Below are positions 4,426-17,498 of a stretch of DNA of 30,374 nt, in pieces; positions within the stretch are counted from its first letter, which is position 1; every line of letters begins with the position of its first letter. Below the pieces are notes generated by a model. It did no database searches. It was not told the origin of the DNA and was given only the letters and a program-made list of their open reading frames with translations. Source of the stretch: a virus; the IMG/VR virus record IMGVR_UViG_3300011115_000700, positions 1 through 30,374 of that record; one strand, 5' to 3'. Made by a program: the position numbers and the translations under genes.

Positions 4426-4817
4426 TCCTCGCGCTCGCAGCCGCCGCAGTCCTTACCGGCTCCGGGAGTGCTTACGCCTCTTGCGACGGGTCAACGACGC
4501 AGACCGCGAGCGGACAAACGGTTCGCGTTGGCTACGTCGCAGCGAACGGCCTACCGCTCGGCTCGTGGGTTGAGATGCGGCGCCCGTCGCGCGTAATGGG
4601 GCTCAGGTACTTCCGCGTGATGGACAGGGGCGGAATGGCTTTCGGAACGGATCTGGACTTCTGGACTGATGACTGCCAATGGATGAACGCTTGGGGCCGT
4701 AGGCCGGTCACGTACCGCGTTGTTCCTCGTAGTGAGCTTTACCGGGGGAAGCCGTATAAGGGCTGGAAGCTGCGGCGTGCCGCTAAGGGCGCTCGGTTGA
4801 CTTGGAGCGCACGATGA
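4422..4817 (+). CDS. Secreted 3D/double-psi beta-barrel-like protein
   Basis: 131 residues. The N-terminus is a Sec signal peptide: a hydrophobic run ILALAAAAVLTGSGSA with a plausible AYA-S cleavage site near residue 19. The mature part contains MGLRYFRVMDRGGMAFGTDL (residues 59-78), followed by a DFWTDDC segment. This DRGG and D-x-D pattern resembles the 3D and RlpA double-psi beta-barrel domains that act on peptidoglycan; two cysteines (21 and 85) may form a disulphide. It lies among early genes, far from the lysis cassette, so it may modify the wall or block superinfection rather than cause lysis. It overlaps both neighbours by 4 bp. Domain call is moderate; function is inference. Confidence 0.62.
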   Translation: MILALAAAAVLTGSGSAYASCDGSTTQTASGQTVRVGYVAANGLPLGSWVEMRRPSRVMGLRYFRVMDRGGMAFGTDLDFWTDDCQWMNAWGRRPVTYRVVPRSELYRGKPYKGWKLRRAAKGARLTWSAR

Positions 4818-5146
4818 AGCGCGACTGGACTGCCGCGCGGGCGAAGTGTGACGCCGAAGGCCGCTGTCGGTACTGCCGCGTCGCAGGGCCGTTGGAGGCC
4901 GCGCACATCATTAGCCGCTCAATCAAGGGCCACGACAATCAGATGGCGGATAGCTGCATACCCCTTTGCCCGTCCTGCCATCGCCAGCAGCACCACGACC
5001 GAGCCTCAATGAAGCTACTCAGCCGGGGCTTCTTGACCGCAGAAGAGCAGGCCGCAGCGGTCTTGGCGGCGGGCTCAATCTTTCAGGCGGTCGAACTTAT
5101 AGATGGCAGAGGCTCGTCCAAATCACTAGACACGGGAGAAAAGTAA
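4814..5146 (+). CDS. HNH endonuclease
   Basis: 110 residues from ATG 4814, which overlaps the preceding TGA; a TTG at 4802 is the less likely alternative. The zinc pairs CRYC (18-21) and CPSC (52-55) bracket AAHIISRS with H31, N42 and the H56/H60 region, the beta-beta-alpha metal fold of HNH nucleases. Phage HNH proteins can be homing nucleases or, when next to terminase, packaging helpers. This one is in the early operon, far from terminase, so a homing or DNA-metabolic role is more likely. Confidence 0.82.
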   Translation: MKRDWTAARAKCDAEGRCRYCRVAGPLEAAHIISRSIKGHDNQMADSCIPLCPSCHRQQHHDRASMKLLSRGFLTAEEQAAAVLAAGSIFQAVELIDGRGSSKSLDTGEK

Positions 5147-6875: not shown

Positions 6876-7021
6876 CGCTAGAGGACAAACTTCGCGCCGC
6901 AGGAATCACGCCGACGATCGACGCCTGCGCCGCCTACCGCCTCGCGCTCGCAGACAAGTCCGCAAATGGCGACAATGCCCGTCCGCTACCGATCACAGTG
7001 TGGCAACCTAAGAAGCGATGA
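6872..7021 (+). CDS. Mini-protein, paralogue B (49 aa)
   Basis: GTG 6872 overlaps the TGA of paralogue A, and its TGA overlaps the integrase ATG. About 15 of the first 24 residues match paralogue A in the same positions, including the L-R-A-G-I-x-P-T core; the downstream parts differ, and this copy ends in a proline-rich basic tail (PITVWQPKKR). Placed immediately before the integrase, so a role in the integration or lysogeny decision (for example an excisionase-like helper) is conceivable but not shown. Confidence 0.55.
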   Translation: MTLEDKLRAAGITPTIDACAAYRLALADKSANGDNARPLPITVWQPKKR

Positions 7022-7965
7022 AGCTTGACCGCGCCATAGACCTCTTCATCTCCGACTGGCGCAGCTACGGACGGATCAACTCACCGCACACCGAGAGCGC
7101 CTACCGCCGGAAGCTAGAAGTCCTCGGTGAAGTATCGAACCGCCGGCCGGTGGAGAAGCTAGGCAAGGCCGATGTCAAAGAGGCGCTTCGGTCGTGGCCT
7201 AATCCAAACTCTGCGCTTCAGGCTCATTCCGTCTATACCGCGTTCTTTGATTGGTGCCTAGAGGAAGACATAAGGAAGACAAACCCTGCTCGGATGGTTC
7301 ACCGGCCTAAGAAGAAGCAGGCGATCATCACGCGGCTAACGCGGGCCGAAACGCAGCAGCTCCTAGAGTGGTCGATCACGGCGCCGCCGACCTACCGCTG
7401 GACGCTCTACCTCGGCGTCTGCGCTGGACTACGCAATCAAGAGCTCTGCCTGCTAGAGAAACGCGACTTAGAGCGTCCGGGGTTTATTCACATTCGCCAG
7501 GCGGCAGGGAAGGGGCAGAAGGAGCGGATCATCCCCGTCATCAGAGACTTGGAGCCGATCATTGACGAGATCCTTCAGGTCGGCCAGCCGGACGGAACGC
7601 TTCTCCGGGGCCGCGTTCAGGTTATGCCGCAGCGGAGCCTAGAGATGCGCGACAAAGCCTCCCCGATGAGCAGGGGCGGGATGTATAAGCTCGTTCAGCG
7701 CTCAGGTGAGCGCGCGGGCCTTCACGTACCGATCACGCCGCACACACTCCGACACGCCTTTGGAGACTTCGTAGCGAAGTACGCAGGATTACGAGTAGCG
7801 CAAGCCCTACTCGGTCACGCTTCGGTCGAGACGACCGCGGGAACGTATGTAGACCGCGTAGGGCTAGACGAGATGACCGTCGCTATGAGCGGCTTCTCAA
7901 TCTGGCAGGGGGTATCACTTGACAATCAACCGAATGAGCGAGGAGCTGGCAATAATGCGCGATAA
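7018..7965 (+). CDS. int: Tyrosine recombinase (phage integrase)
   Basis: 315 residues. An N-terminal SAM-like core-binding domain (about 1-90) is followed by the catalytic domain with all expected residues: R139 in AGLRNQEL, K165 in the GKGQKER turn, H242 and R245 in HTLRHAFG, H267 in LLGHASVETT and nucleophile Y277 in AGTYVDR. There is no arm-type DNA-binding domain, so it is a short, XerC/D-like type. It catalyses site-specific integration and excision between attP and a host attB. Its start overlaps the mini-protein before it and the next gene begins within its end, so no non-coding attP flanks the gene. The element is probably temperate. Confidence 0.93.
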   Translation: MKLDRAIDLFISDWRSYGRINSPHTESAYRRKLEVLGEVSNRRPVEKLGKADVKEALRSWPNPNSALQAHSVYTAFFDWCLEEDIRKTNPARMVHRPKKKQAIITRLTRAETQQLLEWSITAPPTYRWTLYLGVCAGLRNQELCLLEKRDLERPGFIHIRQAAGKGQKERIIPVIRDLEPIIDEILQVGQPDGTLLRGRVQVMPQRSLEMRDKASPMSRGGMYKLVQRSGERAGLHVPITPHTLRHAFGDFVAKYAGLRVAQALLGHASVETTAGTYVDRVGLDEMTVAMSGFSIWQGVSLDNQPNERGAGNNAR

Positions 7966-9900: not shown

Positions 9901-10130
9901 GCGAGCCGATCTGGAAGATGACCGATGAAGGTTTCGCCGTCACGTTCATACCCGTCTCGGATGATGACGGACGCAATCACATCGCCATCGCAGTAGGCAC
10001 ACCGACACCGCGCGTCCTAGTCAGCCTGCTATCGAGCGAGGCTAAAGAGCGGGCGACAGCGCACATTGCTTTAGCGATGGTGGCGCACGACAACTTGGAA
10101 GCTAAGGGATTGACGTTTAGGAGTGGATGA
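9897..10130 (+). CDS. Hypothetical protein (77 aa)
   Basis: ATG 9897 overlaps the previous TGA. A longer in-frame ORF from 9573 would overlap two other coupled genes and is rejected. The protein has a beta-hairpin-like first half (KMTDEGFAVTFIPVSDDDGR) and a helical second half. No family recognised. Confidence 0.55.
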   Translation: MSEPIWKMTDEGFAVTFIPVSDDDGRNHIAIAVGTPTPRVLVSLLSSEAKERATAHIALAMVAHDNLEAKGLTFRSG

Positions 10131-10561
10131 TGGCGAAGATGCATCCGGCGACCCGCGAGAAGCGGATCAACTACTTGGCAGATCAGTGGAAGGACGATCT
10201 CTTCTCGGAGCTGCTGCTGCGGGGTAGGGACATTGAGGAAGCAGCCCTGGCGCTGAAGATTGACCAAACAGACGGGATTGTCTACTTCGTCCAGTGTGGA
10301 GATGGTGGCCCGATCAAGTTAGGTCACACGCGCCACGACATCAATAAGCGACTAGCTGCGCTCCAAACAGCTAACCCGTTCCTACTTACAGCACGACGCA
10401 CTATCCCCGGATCGCGGAGGCTGGAGTCAATGCTTCACAAGCACTTCGCCCGCGACATCATCCTCGGAGAATGGTTCGTCGCAACCGAAGAGCTAGCAGC
10501 GATGTGTGGGGGAACGCCGACACCGGCTGAGTTCCTAGCTGGAGGAGTTTCTAATGCGTAA
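10127..10561 (+). CDS. GIY-YIG nuclease family protein (MUG113/T5orf172-like)
   Basis: 144 residues; tandem ATGs at 10127 and 10130, the first overlapping the preceding TGA. After a helical N-terminus, residues 50-118 carry the diverged GIY-YIG pattern: GIVYFV (50-55), IKLGHT (63-68), R75 in NKRLAALQ, E100 in RLESMLHKHF and the end motif GEWF (114-117). This is the variant found in T5orf172/MUG113-type proteins, single-strand or structure-specific nucleases or just DNA-binding domains. It sits immediately upstream of terminase, so a role in packaging or as a homing-type element is possible. Confidence 0.75.
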   Translation: MMAKMHPATREKRINYLADQWKDDLFSELLLRGRDIEEAALALKIDQTDGIVYFVQCGDGGPIKLGHTRHDINKRLAALQTANPFLLTARRTIPGSRRLESMLHKHFARDIILGEWFVATEELAAMCGGTPTPAEFLAGGVSNA

Positions 10562-12381: not shown

Positions 12382-13860
12382 ATCCCTAACTTCGCATACG
12401 CGCTCCTAAGCGAGCTAGACGCATCACCCGCCTGGCCGCTGAAGCGTGAACGTCACGCCATCGCAAGGGTTCAGCGCCGCCGCGCGTTCTACGAGCAGGA
12501 CGAGGCCGTGATCCGTTCGCTAGCCAACTGGGACATCCGCAGCCAAACCCTCTTCGTAGGTGACTCGCCTCGTCAGTACATCATCGACCCTTTGGCTTCC
12601 CGCATCGCAGAGGGCTACGGCGACTTCCTCTTCGGAGAGGACGTAGAGATCGAACCGGCAGCCCTTGACGGGGTTGAGGCCGCTAACGATCACGCCTTCC
12701 TAGAGAGCATCGTTGACGAGAACCACCTAGAAGCCGAGCTATGGACAGCCGAGACGCGCTGCATCAGCGAGGGCGAGGTCTGGTGGCACGTGTACGTCGA
12801 CCGTGAAGTGGCAGACGTTCCGCTCGTGGAGTGGGTCAGCCGCACGAGCGTCACTCCGCTTTACCGAGGGAACCGTCTTCTAGCTTGCGCTTTCGTCACC
12901 TGCGTAGCTGAAACAGACGACACCTACTACCGCCTCGCTGAGATCCACGCGGACGGGATCGTAGTCAACGTGCTTTACATCGGCACCGTCGACAAGCTCG
13001 GCAGGCGCGTAGAGCTAACGGCCCTACCTTTGACTGAGAGCCTTCTGCCCGAATGGCTGACCGGCCTGCCGATGCTCGCCGGCGTGGTCAAGAACGGCTT
13101 CAACATCCGAGGCAACCTCGGCTTTAGCGAGTACGACCGCATCGAAAGCCTTCTCCTGGAGCTGAACGAGGCGCGCACTATCGGCTCAGAGAACGCAAGG
13201 CTGACCGCGAAGAAGCGCCTCTTTGCCAACTCGTCAATCCTCGCAACCGACAGCTCCGGCGGGAACGCCTTCCCCGTTGGCGAGGACATCATCTTGACCG
13301 ACTCAGGCGGCGGGCCTATCGGCGGCGGCTCAGACAAGCCTCCAGTGACCGCAGTGGAATACAGCTTTGACGCTCTGCCGCTGATCGCTCACACGCAGGA
13401 GGTTGAGCGGACAATCCTTAGCCGCGTTGGACTCGTGCCGCAGTTCATCGGGACGGACGTTCAAGGTTCAAGCGACAGCGGGACAGCGCTCCGGCTGCGC
13501 TTCCTGCCAACCGTGAACGCAGCTCGCGCCAAGTCGCGCGAGTGGGAGTCAAAGCTGCCGTTGATAATGATGCTGGCGATGCTCGTCGATCAGATGCCGC
13601 TAGAGATGGGCGGCTTCGGACGCGAATACTTCACCGCAGGGCTCCGGCCATCCGTCAAGCTCGGCTCGGTTCTACCGACCGATGACGCCGAGCTGGTTCG
13701 CAACACTTCGCTAGCCGTCAGCTCGGAGATTATGAGCCGCGAGACAGCGATCAGCGAGCAGCATCCAGAGTGGGATCAGCAGGCCGTTCTCGAAGAGATC
13801 GACCGAATCCAAATAGACCTTTCCGGCGCGCCCGTAGTTCTGCCGCCGGCAGTGCAGTAA
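12382..13860 (+). CDS. Portal protein (start possibly ATC)
   Basis: From the first conventional start, GTG 12508, the protein has 450 residues; in the same frame it is open back to the terL stop at 12370. AGGAG lies at 12371-12375, and 6 nt later is ATC 12382, which would give about 492 residues. The added 42 residues (NFAYALLSELDASPAWPL then RRRAFYEQDEA) look like the usual portal N-terminus, with portal-type codon bias. The rest (about SPRQYIIDPLASRIAEGYGD, LVEWVSRTSVTPLY, then the GSSDSGTALRLRF segment) is portal-like. The ring is the DNA channel of the head. Conservatively, annotate 12508..13860. Confidence 0.8.
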   Translation: MPNFAYALLSELDASPAWPLKRERHAIARVQRRRAFYEQDEAVIRSLANWDIRSQTLFVGDSPRQYIIDPLASRIAEGYGDFLFGEDVEIEPAALDGVEAANDHAFLESIVDENHLEAELWTAETRCISEGEVWWHVYVDREVADVPLVEWVSRTSVTPLYRGNRLLACAFVTCVAETDDTYYRLAEIHADGIVVNVLYIGTVDKLGRRVELTALPLTESLLPEWLTGLPMLAGVVKNGFNIRGNLGFSEYDRIESLLLELNEARTIGSENARLTAKKRLFANSSILATDSSGGNAFPVGEDIILTDSGGGPIGGGSDKPPVTAVEYSFDALPLIAHTQEVERTILSRVGLVPQFIGTDVQGSSDSGTALRLRFLPTVNAARAKSREWESKLPLIMMLAMLVDQMPLEMGGFGREYFTAGLRPSVKLGSVLPTDDAELVRNTSLAVSSEIMSRETAISEQHPEWDQQAVLEEIDRIQIDLSGAPVVLPPAVQ

Positions 13861-13887
13861 GTCAAATCCACCGAAGCCCGCTAGGTG

Positions 13888-13903
13888 CTCGCGTCGCTGC
13901 GAG
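13888..13903 (+). promoter_or_regulatory. Small hairpin between portal and scaffold genes
   Basis: In the 76-bp gap 13861-13936, CTCGC (13888-13892) pairs with GCGAG (13899-13903) around a 6-nt loop. No U-tract follows. It may tune mRNA stability or translation of the downstream scaffold gene, which has its own AAAGGA Shine-Dalgarno. Low stability and short length make this tentative. Confidence 0.25.
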
Positions 13904-13936
13904 TCATAAAACGCGCGGGACTGAAAGGACGTACCT

Positions 13937-14515
13937 ATGTCTGATGACGTAGCAGTAGAAGAGGCCGTCGAAGAGACGGTAGAAGCGGTTGAAGAGGTCG
14001 TAGAGACTCCTGAAACCGTGACTATGAGCAAAGCTGAAGCTGACGCACTGCGCCGCGAAGTAGCGGAGCAGCGCAAGACAGCTAAGAAGCTCGCAAGCGC
14101 CGCAGAAGTAGCGGAGCGCAAGCGCCTAGAGGAAGAGGGGCAGTATCAAACCCTCGCTTCCCAGGCGGAAGATCGCGCCACCGTTGCAGAGGCCCGCGCC
14201 AAAGAGCTAGAGCAGCGCCAGCTCATCTCGCAGGTAGCATCGCGTCTGAAGTTCCGCGACTCCGCAGATGCCGTCGCGCATCTGAAGGATCGAGGCATTG
14301 AAGCCGATGATGAGGCAAGCGTAGAGAACGCACTAGCTGCGCTCGCTACCGAGAAGTCGTATCTGATCGAGCAGTCCATCCCTACAAGGACGGGCGGCTC
14401 AGTCACCTCGGACGCGCCTCAGACCGTGACCATCGAAGCGCTCCGGGGAATGACCCCGGCTCAGGTCTCGGCGCTCGACCCGGCGGAAGTTCACCGGGCG
14501 CTCTCCGGCTCATAA
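13937..14515 (+). CDS. Capsid scaffolding protein
   Basis: 192 residues. The N-terminus is very acidic (repeated V-E-E motifs, residues 4-26), followed by a long charged coiled coil (about 30-95: SKAEADALRREVAEQRKTAK, then ERKRLEEEGQYQTLAS) and a mixed C-terminus that would bind the coat. It directly precedes the major capsid gene, the standard location for scaffold. No protease domain is visible here or next to it, so a head protease is either absent or outside the window. The scaffold is predicted from composition and position, not from a sharp sequence motif. Confidence 0.75.
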   Translation: MSDDVAVEEAVEETVEAVEEVVETPETVTMSKAEADALRREVAEQRKTAKKLASAAEVAERKRLEEEGQYQTLASQAEDRATVAEARAKELEQRQLISQVASRLKFRDSADAVAHLKDRGIEADDEASVENALAALATEKSYLIEQSIPTRTGGSVTSDAPQTVTIEALRGMTPAQVSALDPAEVHRALSGS

Positions 14516-14553
14516 CGAGCCTTCAATCCCTAAACCTAAAGGAGTCCTAGCTA

Positions 14554-15396
14554 ATGGCTTTGACTAACTTCATCCCGGCTGTATGGTCGGCTTCGCTACT
14601 GACGAATCTCCAGAAGAGCCTCGTCTTTGGCAACCTCGCAAACCGTGACTACGAAGGCGAAGTCGCCGGCGCAGGTTCGACGGTCAACATCAACGCAATC
14701 GGCGCAGTGACGGTCGGCTCATACACGAAGAGCACCGACCACAGCGTGCCGGAAACTCTGACTTCAACTCAGAGCATCCTCGCCATCGACCAGCAGAAGT
14801 TCTTCAACTTCTTGATTGACGATGTAGACAAGGCTCAGACGGTTCCGAAGGTAATGGAAGCGGCTATGGCCGAAGCTGGATACGCGCTCGCCAACGATGT
14901 AGATAGCTACATCTCTGGCCTTCACGCCTCCGCCTCGTCCTCAAACCTCGTCGGCTCAACGGCTACGCCTACCGCTCTCACGAGCGCTAACGCTTACGAG
15001 TCGCTGGTCACGCTGTCGAAGCTGCTCTCGATCAGCAACGCAAGCAAGCAAGATCGCTGGATCGCGCTTCCGCCGCAGTGGATCGCTCTACTGCTAGCTG
15101 ACAGCCGCTTCGTAGCGTCTGGCGCTCCTGAAGGTGACGCTCGCCTCGTGAACGGCCTTGTCGGTCGCGCTGCTGGCTTCAACATCTACGAGACGAACAA
15201 CACGACCATCGTCTCGTCCACGAAGTACAAGGTGCTCGCCGGTACGTCACAGGCAATCACCTACGCAAATCAGGTTGATTCGGTAGTCGCCTACCGTCCT
15301 GAGCTGCGCTTCGCAGATGCCGTCAAGGGTCTGCACATCTACGGCGCGAAGGTAGTCCGGCCAGAGTGCCTGGCTTGCGCCACCGTCACCTTCTAA
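14554..15396 (+). CDS. Major capsid protein (HK97-fold type)
   Basis: 280 residues; AAAGGAG before ATG 14554. The N-terminus FIPAVWSASLLTNLQKSLVF is the typical opening of the P22-coat/HK97-like capsid family, followed by the E-loop-like VNINAIGAVTVGSYT and SVPETLTSTQS. The axial A domain includes DRWIALPPQWIALLL, and the C-terminus ends in YGAKVVRPECLACATVTF. Self-assembles on scaffold into the icosahedral head. No protease-cleaved delta domain is seen, in keeping with the separate scaffold gene. Confidence 0.88.
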   Translation: MALTNFIPAVWSASLLTNLQKSLVFGNLANRDYEGEVAGAGSTVNINAIGAVTVGSYTKSTDHSVPETLTSTQSILAIDQQKFFNFLIDDVDKAQTVPKVMEAAMAEAGYALANDVDSYISGLHASASSSNLVGSTATPTALTSANAYESLVTLSKLLSISNASKQDRWIALPPQWIALLLADSRFVASGAPEGDARLVNGLVGRAAGFNIYETNNTTIVSSTKYKVLAGTSQAITYANQVDSVVAYRPELRFADAVKGLHIYGAKVVRPECLACATVTF

Positions 15397-15406
15397 AGAA
15401 GGTTTC

Positions 15407-15473
15407 AGCGACGCTCCGGCGCTACTCAGTTGAGTAGCTAGGGCTAGGCAGGGTTCGACTCCCTGCCGTCGCT
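15407..15473 (+). ncRNA. tRNA-like three-stem RNA element without anticodon arm
   Basis: In the 131-bp gap after the capsid gene. AGCGACG (15407-15413) pairs perfectly with CGTCGCT (15467-15473) as an acceptor-like helix. Inside are GCTACTC/GAGTAGC (15421-15427, 15432-15438), like a D arm, and GGCAGGG/CCCTGCC (15447-15453, 15461-15467) around the loop TTCGACT, a consensus T loop with G before it. Only 8 nt (TAGGGCTA) separate the two arms, too few for an anticodon arm. No 3' CCA is encoded. It is therefore not a working tRNA; it could be a tRNA mimic, an RNA-processing site, or the tRNA-derived core of attP. Confidence 0.55.
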
Positions 15474-15527
15474 TCAGTTTGTGGACACCTACGGCCACAA
15501 CTTGCATCGCTAAACGAGGAGAATCCT

Positions 15528-15980
15528 TTGCCGATCACCGTCTACTACTCCGCCGCCGCGACTTTGCGCGACGAGCTGGGCGTATCCTCAGTGGTTCTAA
15601 CCGATGACGCCGCGAACCGTCTGATCCGCAAGGCCGAAGGTGAGATCGACCGGCTAATCGGGGTCAGGCCGACCGATGACACGACAGGCCGCAAGGTCGT
15701 ACAGGCTGACGTTGACGCTTGGCAGTGGACGAAGCTCGGCAGGGCTACGACCGTAATCGCGGCAGCTATCTACTCCAACGCGGAAGGAATCGACCTACCG
15801 CAGTGGGAGCGCGTCAAGGGGCCGGACTTTGAGTTTCAAGGCCCGAACAGCTCGACGAGCCGCGAAGCCCTCAACGAGCTAGATCAGAGCGGCCTACGTC
15901 GCTTGACCGGCTCCGCTCACGGCAGGGTGCCAGGACGCTTCGATTCATTCCTACAAGCTACGAGACACGGGGGGCCATAA
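15528..15980 (+). CDS. Head-tail connector / adaptor protein
   Basis: 150 residues, TTG start after GAGGAG. The N-terminal helical part (AAATLRDELGVSSVVLTDDA, AEGEIDRLIG) is the pattern of the gp6/gp15-like adaptors that plug into the portal ring; the C-terminus is basic. It is the first gene after the capsid gene and tRNA-like element. Role inferred from size, helix content and synteny. Confidence 0.65.
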   Translation: MPITVYYSAAATLRDELGVSSVVLTDDAANRLIRKAEGEIDRLIGVRPTDDTTGRKVVQADVDAWQWTKLGRATTVIAAAIYSNAEGIDLPQWERVKGPDFEFQGPNSSTSREALNELDQSGLRRLTGSAHGRVPGRFDSFLQATRHGGP

Positions 15981-16427
15981 GTGGCTGACAACGTAAGCAT
16001 AAATGCGAGCTCAGGGACAGCCAACGTCAGCACCGATGACGTAGGCGGAGTGCAGTTTCAGAACGTCAAGCTAGACATTGGCGGCAACGGCCTAAGCGTC
16101 CCGCTCTCCTCAACTAACCCGCTGCCAGTCACCGCTTCGGTTATCAACGCTTCGATCACCGATGGGCGAACGGTAGTCACGACCGCCGGCACGCGCGTCG
16201 CCCTAGCCTCCTCAACGGTCGTCAAGGAAGTAGTCATCACCGCCGAGACAGACAACACCGGCATCGTGGTCGTCGGCGGCTCAACCTGCGTCGCTGCTCT
16301 TGCTACTCGGCGCGGTATCCCGCTGAACGCTGGCGACTCGGTGAGCTTTCAGATCACAAACCTAAACGCGATCAGCATTGACTCTACGGTCAGCACTGAT
16401 GGCGTGACTTACGTGGCGTTCTCCTAA
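15981..16427 (+). CDS. Beta-rich virion structural protein (decoration/fibre-like)
   Basis: 148 residues, GTG start immediately after the preceding TAA. Nearly all beta: long Thr/Ser/Val stretches (TVVKEVVITAETDN, then GIPLNAGDSVSFQI) that resemble small phage head decoration or fibre-tip domains ending in a GVTYVAF-type strand. No enzymatic motif. First of three consecutive beta-rich genes between the capsid and the head-tail joining genes, where many phages keep head fibres. Exact role unknown. Confidence 0.55.
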   Translation: MADNVSINASSGTANVSTDDVGGVQFQNVKLDIGGNGLSVPLSSTNPLPVTASVINASITDGRTVVTTAGTRVALASSTVVKEVVITAETDNTGIVVVGGSTCVAALATRRGIPLNAGDSVSFQITNLNAISIDSTVSTDGVTYVAFS

Positions 16428-16864
16428 TGGCTAGCGTATCGAGGGTTGCTAACGAATACACGGTTTTGGGTGTTCACACGCTCACAACGGCGTTTACTAC
16501 TTCGGCAACGCATACGACTTATCAGGATGAGGGTTTGACGTTGAGCGTTACTTATTTACCTTCACGTATTCTGCGTGTGTCGTTCAATCTCAATCCATTT
16601 TGTTCGGGGGGGGTGCAAGCTATGGCGTTTCAAGTGTTGCGTGGCGCAACGTCAACGCGCGAGTTTTTTATCAACCCTGTTGCGTTGTCAGCCGCCGGCG
16701 TGACTTACGTCGGTCTGTCACATACGTTTAATGGGCCTGCGACGGGCGCAACCGAAACCTTCAAACTGCAAATCAAGGCGGGCGATGCAAACACTGCTGT
16801 TCAGTCGTATGGGGCCGCGACCATACCGCGGCAGCTTATCGTTGAAGACTTGGGACCACAATAA
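16427..16864 (+). CDS. Beta-rich virion protein, atypical base composition (145 aa)
   Basis: The ATG overlaps the previous TAA. The protein starts MASVSRVANEYTVLGVHTLT and is almost all beta strand with many threonines. Its DNA is visibly poorer in GC than the surrounding genes (TTG, GTT, TTT and ACG codons prevail) and contains a run of eight G (16606-16613) within codons, a sign of recent acquisition or rapid change. The next gene begins MASVTR, so the two may be related modules. Likely surface-exposed head or tail decoration; receptor binding is possible but unproven. Confidence 0.55.
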   Translation: MASVSRVANEYTVLGVHTLTTAFTTSATHTTYQDEGLTLSVTYLPSRILRVSFNLNPFCSGGVQAMAFQVLRGATSTREFFINPVALSAAGVTYVGLSHTFNGPATGATETFKLQIKAGDANTAVQSYGAATIPRQLIVEDLGPQ

Positions 16865-16875
16865 GGGGGCATTGA

Positions 16876-17409
16876 ATGGCATCTGTTACTAGGAATCCAC
16901 GACCACTATTCGTTACGACACTGCCACCGGCAGCTGACGGAATGGAAGTCTATTACCGCGCTGACTCAACTAACGGCGTTATCTGGCATCTACGTGCTCG
17001 CTCGGTGGCTAATGGTGGCTCCGCTACGTACCCCTGGGAGTTCGTCGGGGGGGGGGCTTTAGCTACTGATTCACTCAGTCAGATTGCCGCGACTGCGGCT
17101 TACTCAGTAGCTAATGCTTGGGTGAGTATTGGGGCTGCGGTTTCGGATACGGCACCGCTCGCCGGCGAATACCGCTGCGACGCTACGGCAACGGTTTACA
17201 ATCGCTCAACAGGCATACGGCACCGCTCGCCGGCGAATACCGCTGCGACGCTACGGCAACGGTTTACAATCGCTCAACAGGCACCGGCTCAATCGGTGTT
17301 GCTAATCCGACGACACCAGCGTTTCAAACAAGCTATACAAGCAGCGGCGATCAATTCGGCGTACACAGCATTTCGCAAACCCTTACGGCAACCGCCGCCG
17401 CCGTCTTGA
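16876..17409 (+). CDS. Beta-rich structural protein, frame-disrupted by a duplication
   Basis: As it stands, 177 residues. Residues 1-56 (DGMEVYYRADSTNGVIWHLR, then YPWEFVGGGAL) match a motif common in actinophage tail or fibre proteins. From about residue 113 the frame becomes nonsense because a perfect 68-bp unit is repeated at 17147-17282. With one copy removed, the frame joins VYNRSTG to TGSIGVANPTTPAFQ and runs to 17498 as a coherent protein of 184 residues. A run of ten G (17047-17056) lies within the coding part. So the present gene encodes an altered C-terminus, or the duplication is an assembly artefact. Confidence 0.6.
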   Translation: MASVTRNPRPLFVTTLPPAADGMEVYYRADSTNGVIWHLRARSVANGGSATYPWEFVGGGALATDSLSQIAATAAYSVANAWVSIGAAVSDTAPLAGEYRCDATATVYNRSTGIRHRSPANTAATLRQRFTIAQQAPAQSVLLIRRHQRFKQAIQAAAINSAYTAFRKPLRQPPPPS

Positions 17410-17498
17410 CGCTCAAGTTTGCTTTCACGGCAACTAGCGACATCAACTTCTATCGTGCGAGCACATCAGTCAGCATCACACCTATAAGGGTTGGCTAA
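17118..17498 (+). pseudogene. Detached C-terminal part of the structural gene at 16876
   Basis: This frame is open from TTG 17118, but only the part from about 17217 onward makes sense: it repeats APLAGEYRCDATATVYNRST and continues into TGSIGVANPTTPAFQTSYTS and a beta-rich end (TSVSITPIRVG). Upstream of that it is an out-of-frame reading of the first repeat copy, rich in Arg and Gly. It has no Shine-Dalgarno. It is best regarded as the severed C-terminus of the preceding gene rather than as an independent gene. Confidence 0.55.
17147..17282 (+). repeat. Perfect 68-bp tandem duplication
   Basis: Positions 17147-17214 and 17215-17282 are identical over 68 bp, beginning ATACGGCACCGCTCGCC and ending CGCTCAACAGGC. 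Since 68 is not divisible by three, the second copy shifts the frame of the gene. The absence of any difference between the copies points to a very recent event or to an assembly error. Confidence 0.92.

Follow-up and report, generated by a model that had tools for sequence, protein, structure and literature searches.

The virus record IMGVR_UViG_3300011115_000700 of IMG/VR (a stretch of 30,374 nt, analyzed whole and referred to here as the window) contains a 67 nt tRNA-like element at positions 15407–15473. It starts 10 nt 3′ of the end of the capsid stop codon (position 15396) and precedes the TTG start codon of the next gene at position 15528. The element is real, and sequence comparison indicates that it appears to be under selection as an RNA. 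The preferred explanation, with a probability of about 45%, is that it is a structured RNA of the late transcript, a mimic of the acceptor/T-arm half of tRNA, and that it would define or protect the capsid message at its 3′ end, perhaps by way of cleavage by RNase P/RNase Z. A first-pass annotation of the window had proposed a tRNA mimic on the late mRNA between the capsid and connector genes; this is still the best reading, although its D-arm part fails in relatives.

Position and anatomy of the element

The element is present exactly where the first-pass annotation had placed it. Its predicted fold is a three-way junction of about −37 kcal/mol and none of 200 shuffled sequences folds as well (z = −3.85 for positions 15407–15475 and −3.64 for 15407–15473); across five sequences the z-value is between −3.6 and −6.3. 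Coordinates of the element, its parts and the adjacent features are given in Table 1.

Table 1. Coordinates in the window of the tRNA-like element, its helices and loops, and the flanking features.
Feature	Positions	Strand	Remarks
Major capsid protein gene (Phage_capsid_4; phrog_267 major head protein)	14554–15396	+	family matches
Last seven capsid codons	15373–15393	+	identical at every base, window vs diverged L014
Stop-codon hairpin ACCTTC-TAAA-GAAGGT	15388–15403	+	kept in 5 of 6 relatives
Leader GGTTTC preceding the element	15401–15406	+	invariant
tRNA-like element, whole	15407–15473	+	fold and conservation
Outer (acceptor-like) helix, 5′ strand AGCGAC, pairs with 15468–15473	15407–15412	+	two compensatory pairs, L014
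Side-arm base helix GCTC, pairs with GGGC 15441–15444	15413–15416	+	U-G or C-G in relatives
YGGC stretch	15417–15420	+	GGC invariant in all relatives
Side hairpin GCTACTC-AGTT-GAGTAGC	15421–15438	+	loop variable, duplicated in L014
T arm GGCAGGG-TTCGACT-CCCTGCC	15447–15467	+	L014: two compensatory pairs, one G-U
Outer helix, 3′ strand GTCGCT	15468–15473	+	stacked directly on T stem
Next gene, presumed head-tail connector by position	15528–15980	+	own RBS, TTG start

The 3′ strand of the T arm continues straight into the outer helix, and the 6 bp of the outer helix and the 7 bp of the T stem form a stack of 13 bp. Counted from G1-C72 (15408/15472) the stack is 12 bp, which is the upper-arm length of tRNA, but the helices branch at a shifted point. 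The A at position −1 is paired with U73. The T loop has the sequence TTCGAYT, closed by a G-C pair, in all five complete sequences, and it agrees with the TTCRANN loop of tRNA. There is no anticodon arm in the element, as only 8 nt separate the side hairpin from the T stem.

The side arm consists of the GCTC/GGGC helix, an internal loop containing GGC, and the side hairpin. The outer helix had previously been drawn as a perfect 7-bp helix, AGCGACG/CGTCGCT. The helix is present, however it is better described as 6 bp followed by the 7-bp T stem; the seventh G begins the 4-bp helix at the base of the side arm, and half of the 8 nt formerly regarded as left over are paired there. The T arm and its loop TTCGACT stand as described, and the loop is near-invariant in relatives. 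The side hairpin had been likened to a D arm, and this does not hold: its loop reads AGTT, GTCT, AGCT, AGCC or ATCT among relatives and the hairpin is duplicated in L014. The constant feature at the location of the supposed D arm is the YGGC stretch before the side hairpin, not its loop.

The conserved block begins upstream of the element and takes in the terminal capsid codons, the stop-codon hairpin and the GGTTTC leader. Over the capsid gene, only 48% of same-residue codons match between the window and L014, and a terminal run of seven identical codons has a probability of about 0.006. The stop-codon hairpin is altered in L004; pairing between ACCTTC at the gene end and GAAGGT after the stop is possible in five of six sequences. 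Conservation does not extend into the sequence that links the element to the RBS of the following gene. No family match was found for the translated sequence of the presumed connector gene. The frame in which this gene lies with respect to the capsid gene is not the same in all relatives. As the gene also has its own RBS and start codon, readthrough or frameshifting from capsid into connector was rejected as the purpose of the element.

Several other features of the window were recorded. Positions 17147–17282 are a perfect 68-nt tandem duplication within the structural gene 16876–17498, which shifts the frame and divides the gene into two overlapping open reading frames. L012, a 99% identical contig, has a single copy of the 68-nt unit. 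The duplication may be a recent mutation, a phase switch or an assembly error. Positions 10127–10561, which immediately precede the terminase small subunit, encode a T5orf172/MUG113 (GIY-YIG-like) protein. An HNH protein is encoded in the early region at positions 4802–5146.

Conservation in relatives and searches for further members

Every related contig found with a capsid identity of at least 66% displays the element in the same location, directly downstream of the capsid stop codon. The element is known from six sequences, i.e. the window and five others, one of which is cut by a contig end. The carriers are L002/L012 (the 99% identical contig), L003, L004, L005, L006 (contig end) and the diverged L014, whose capsid protein is 66%–67% identical.

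First-pass annotation had staked its reading on conservation of the structure in relatives, and this is what the alignment displays: all pairs are kept, with compensatory changes. All 120 pair cells of the five-sequence alignment hold standard pairs. Double changes have occurred at five pairs: the outer helix and the T stem have two each, and the side hairpin has one. The observed pairing and covariation are not attained by any of 500 column shuffles. L014 keeps all 24 pairs. Within the acceptor/T stack there are nine changes between the window and L014 and 13 of 13 pairs are intact (p about 0.001 for random placement). The five double changes all separate L014 from the rest, thus the covariation documents selection on one branch only.

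The T loop varies only at position 59, which is C or T, and the tetraloop of the side hairpin and the linker vary freely. The duplicated side hairpin of L014 (L014:5912–5949) is predicted to fold as a single longer arm; arm length therefore seems free to vary. G-U pairs are present on the + strand, which favors a structure in RNA, read in the same direction as the late genes; a DNA cruciform is disfavored on the same ground.

Searches for tRNA and tmRNA, of the kind suggested earlier, were negative at curated cut-offs. ARAGORN at standard cut-offs calls no tRNA or tmRNA in the element, and Rfam at curated cut-offs gives no match to tRNA, tmRNA, sRNA or Y RNA models. At a permissive Rfam cut-off the two leading matches are tRNA-like families: the mascRNA model scores 18.5 bits in the window, 19.5 in L003 and 16.0 in L004 (the gathering score is 42.5), and the tRNA-Sec model scores 17.5–18.9 bits in the same three sequences (17.5 of 47 bits in the window). 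L014 matches neither model at this cut-off. These scores lie far below gathering and serve only as a hint. ARAGORN at lowered thresholds gives low-scoring tmRNA calls which are inconsistent among relatives; these were not used as evidence.

A descriptor consisting of a 12-bp stack and a canonical T loop was scanned against both strands of phage and bacterial sequence totaling 1.14 Mb, part of it redundant. It detects only the element family and one AT-rich site, and all five complete sequences fit it with 6 + 6 bp and no G-U pair. Matches to a covariance model are confined to this clade and always follow the capsid gene; no further member was found in other capsid-bearing loci, viral or bacterial. 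Pattern matches in L016 and L159–L162 have no matching 3′ half and were set aside as chance.

The cultured-phage relatives by capsid and portal are mainly phages of Actinomycetota. A covariance search of 296 Actinomycetota genomes gives only three weak matches (26–29 bits), all rejected: L183 is a true tRNA-Gly, L182 resembles a tRNA remnant minihelix and L181 is without the T loop. The L182 sequence (positions 1501–1550, in an Actinomycetota genome) is a minihelix of acceptor and T arm without D or anticodon arms that is not called by ARAGORN, and is perhaps the remnant of an integration site. No prophage of the element-bearing clade was detected in 84,980 species genomes, where the best capsid match is 55%.

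Possible role and alternative explanations

Phages need capsid protein in large excess over connector and tail proteins, and these proteins come from neighboring genes. The element would be transcribed within the late mRNA, where the capsid message would have it at its 3′ end. Its position suggests that the structure may set or shield the 3′ end of the capsid mRNA, and the abundant capsid mRNA would be uncoupled from the genes behind the element. The tRNA-like half may be recognized by a host tRNA enzyme. RNase P would cut before G15408, which is separated from the T loop by 12 bp. RNase Z would possibly cut after U15473; a 3′ end without CCA would suit RNase Z. Both messages would be translatable after cutting, because the downstream gene has its own RBS.

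Related to possible RNase P processing, this enzyme accepts an acceptor stem, T stem and T loop alone as a substrate, and its known targets include phage RNAs and mRNAs (PMC11143913). The acceptor/T stack is measured by the enzyme (PMC4919913). The element displays the features of such a substrate, i.e. a stack of about 12 bp, G1-C72 and the T loop. Counted against processing are the lack of a 3′ CCA and the pairing of the A at −1 with U73; for small substrates, the E. coli enzyme reportedly requires a 3′ CCA (PMC5723415). There is no 3′ RCCA; the 3′ neighbors of the element are TTCAG, TTTAT, TTTCA and TTTTG. Processing by RNase P is thus no more than plausible. There is better support for the broader claim, namely that the capsid mRNA has a tRNA-like element at its 3′ end. 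Recognition by EF-Tu, which had also been suggested, finds no support because no CCA end is encoded. A 'tRNA punctuation' of phage structural genes, in which the late transcript would be cleaved at the capsid end by host enzymes of tRNA maturation and the ratio of capsid to connector would thereby be set, with the element replacing the plain hairpin of relatives, is somewhat doubtful.

Relatives whose capsid identity is 58% or less do not have the element. Many of these distant relatives show a strong plain hairpin that starts within about 15 nt of the capsid stop codon (L029, L031, L033, L034, L036, L038, L045, L048, L051, L052, L055, L056 and others), and others show none. Several of the hairpins are stronger than 40 of 40 control windows from the same locus. 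Their sequences are unrelated, and in GC-rich phages they are mostly without a U tract. Post-capsid structure is therefore common in the wider capsid group, and in the element-bearing clade it seems to take the form of the tRNA-like fold.

The same hairpins, directly after the capsid stop and of unrelated sequence, also lend some weight to an explanation in which the element is the usual post-capsid hairpin, a transcription attenuator or a block to 3′-exonucleases, whose likeness to tRNA is accidental and is not read by tRNA enzymes. However a three-way junction and a fixed T loop would be needless in such a hairpin, and the T loop is constant while the other loops vary. The element has no U tract, and no intrinsic terminator (hairpin with U tract) or terminator-like site is found at positions 13800–16500. 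The explanation is considered rather unlikely.

Another possibility is that the element is an RNA binding site for a phage or host protein, acting in translational control or assembly, or a separate small regulatory RNA that the late transcript releases; the tRNA-like shape would serve this role and have no part in mRNA processing. A tertiary fold is suggested by the conservation of the junction, the GGC stretch and the T loop, and the conserved bases reach into the last capsid codons and the stop-codon hairpin. However no partner gene (Ro60, RtcB or similar) is present among the 20 window proteins scanned, and there is no Rfam sRNA match at the curated cut-off. This possibility is regarded as improbable.

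The phage encodes a tyrosine integrase (7018–7965) and sites used by integrases often contain the T arm and acceptor 3′ strand of a tRNA, thus an attachment site for this integrase (attP or attB-like), copied from the 3′ end of a host tRNA, has to be considered. Against this the element lies 7.4 kb from the integrase gene and between structural genes. It also has the 5′ strand of the outer helix, and this changes together with the 3′ strand in L014; as argued earlier, a plain attP fragment would not need both strands. The T half is found in none of 296 Actinomycetota genomes with up to two mismatches, although the host may lie outside this set. An attachment site is considered very unlikely. 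A decaying phage tRNA gene that has lost its anticodon arm and function would account for the clearly tRNA-like acceptor and T arm, but it is largely refuted, as decay would not restore helices and every pair is kept through five double changes, with the element intact across six relatives whose flanks differ.

A tRNA mimic conserved at the end of a capsid gene, as the preferred explanation has it, suggests that host tRNA enzymes may have been recruited for capsid excess. If true, this would be a new class of tRNA-like structure in DNA phage operons which the standard tRNA, tmRNA and Rfam searches have missed, carried by a small group of uncultured phages. Its components are already known separately, i.e. 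tRNA-like structures, phage RNAs processed by RNase P, and post-capsid hairpins. Their combination, an anticodon-less tRNA mimic that ends the capsid gene of a DNA phage, was not found in the searchable open-access literature.

Comparison with known systems

The model and non-tRNA substrates of RNase P include the acceptor and T-arm minihelix, phage M3 RNA, phage C4 antisense RNA and the T4 gene 32 mRNA (PMC11143913). The element is similar to these in its 12-bp acceptor/T stack, G1-C72 pair and canonical T loop, and some of the substrates are likewise phage RNAs or mRNAs. Unlike them, it has no 3′ CCA, carries an extra variable arm, is located at the 3′ end of a capsid gene and is only a putative substrate.

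In the tRNA-like domain of tmRNA and the tRNA-like structures of plant RNA viruses the acceptor/T half is also kept and the anticodon arm is absent or replaced. The element differs from these in having no tag reading frame, CCA or pseudoknotted acceptor, and it is found inside a DNA phage operon.

The mascRNA/menRNA family (RF01684) is the best Rfam match of the element at the permissive cut-off, with 16.0–19.5 bits in the window, L003 and L004. mascRNA and menRNA form the tRNA-like 3′ end of a long RNA, which is a resemblance of function, and both they and the element are tRNA-like structures that lack a usable anticodon and are placed at the 3′ terminus of an RNA. The scores are far below 42.5 bits and L014 is unmatched; homology is not claimed. 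The tRNA-like module of bacterial Y RNA (YrlA) is another case of anticodon-less tRNA mimicry in bacteria and phages; in comparison, the element has no Rfam match to it, and the 20 window proteins scanned include no Ro60 gene product or TROVE domain.

With respect to position, the T7 terminator after gene 10 is an analogue, with the same presumed role at the 3′ end of the capsid mRNA. The post-capsid hairpins of related siphophages (L029, L031, L036) share this position and presumed role. These hairpins are single stems, whereas the element is a three-way junction with the T loop of a tRNA.
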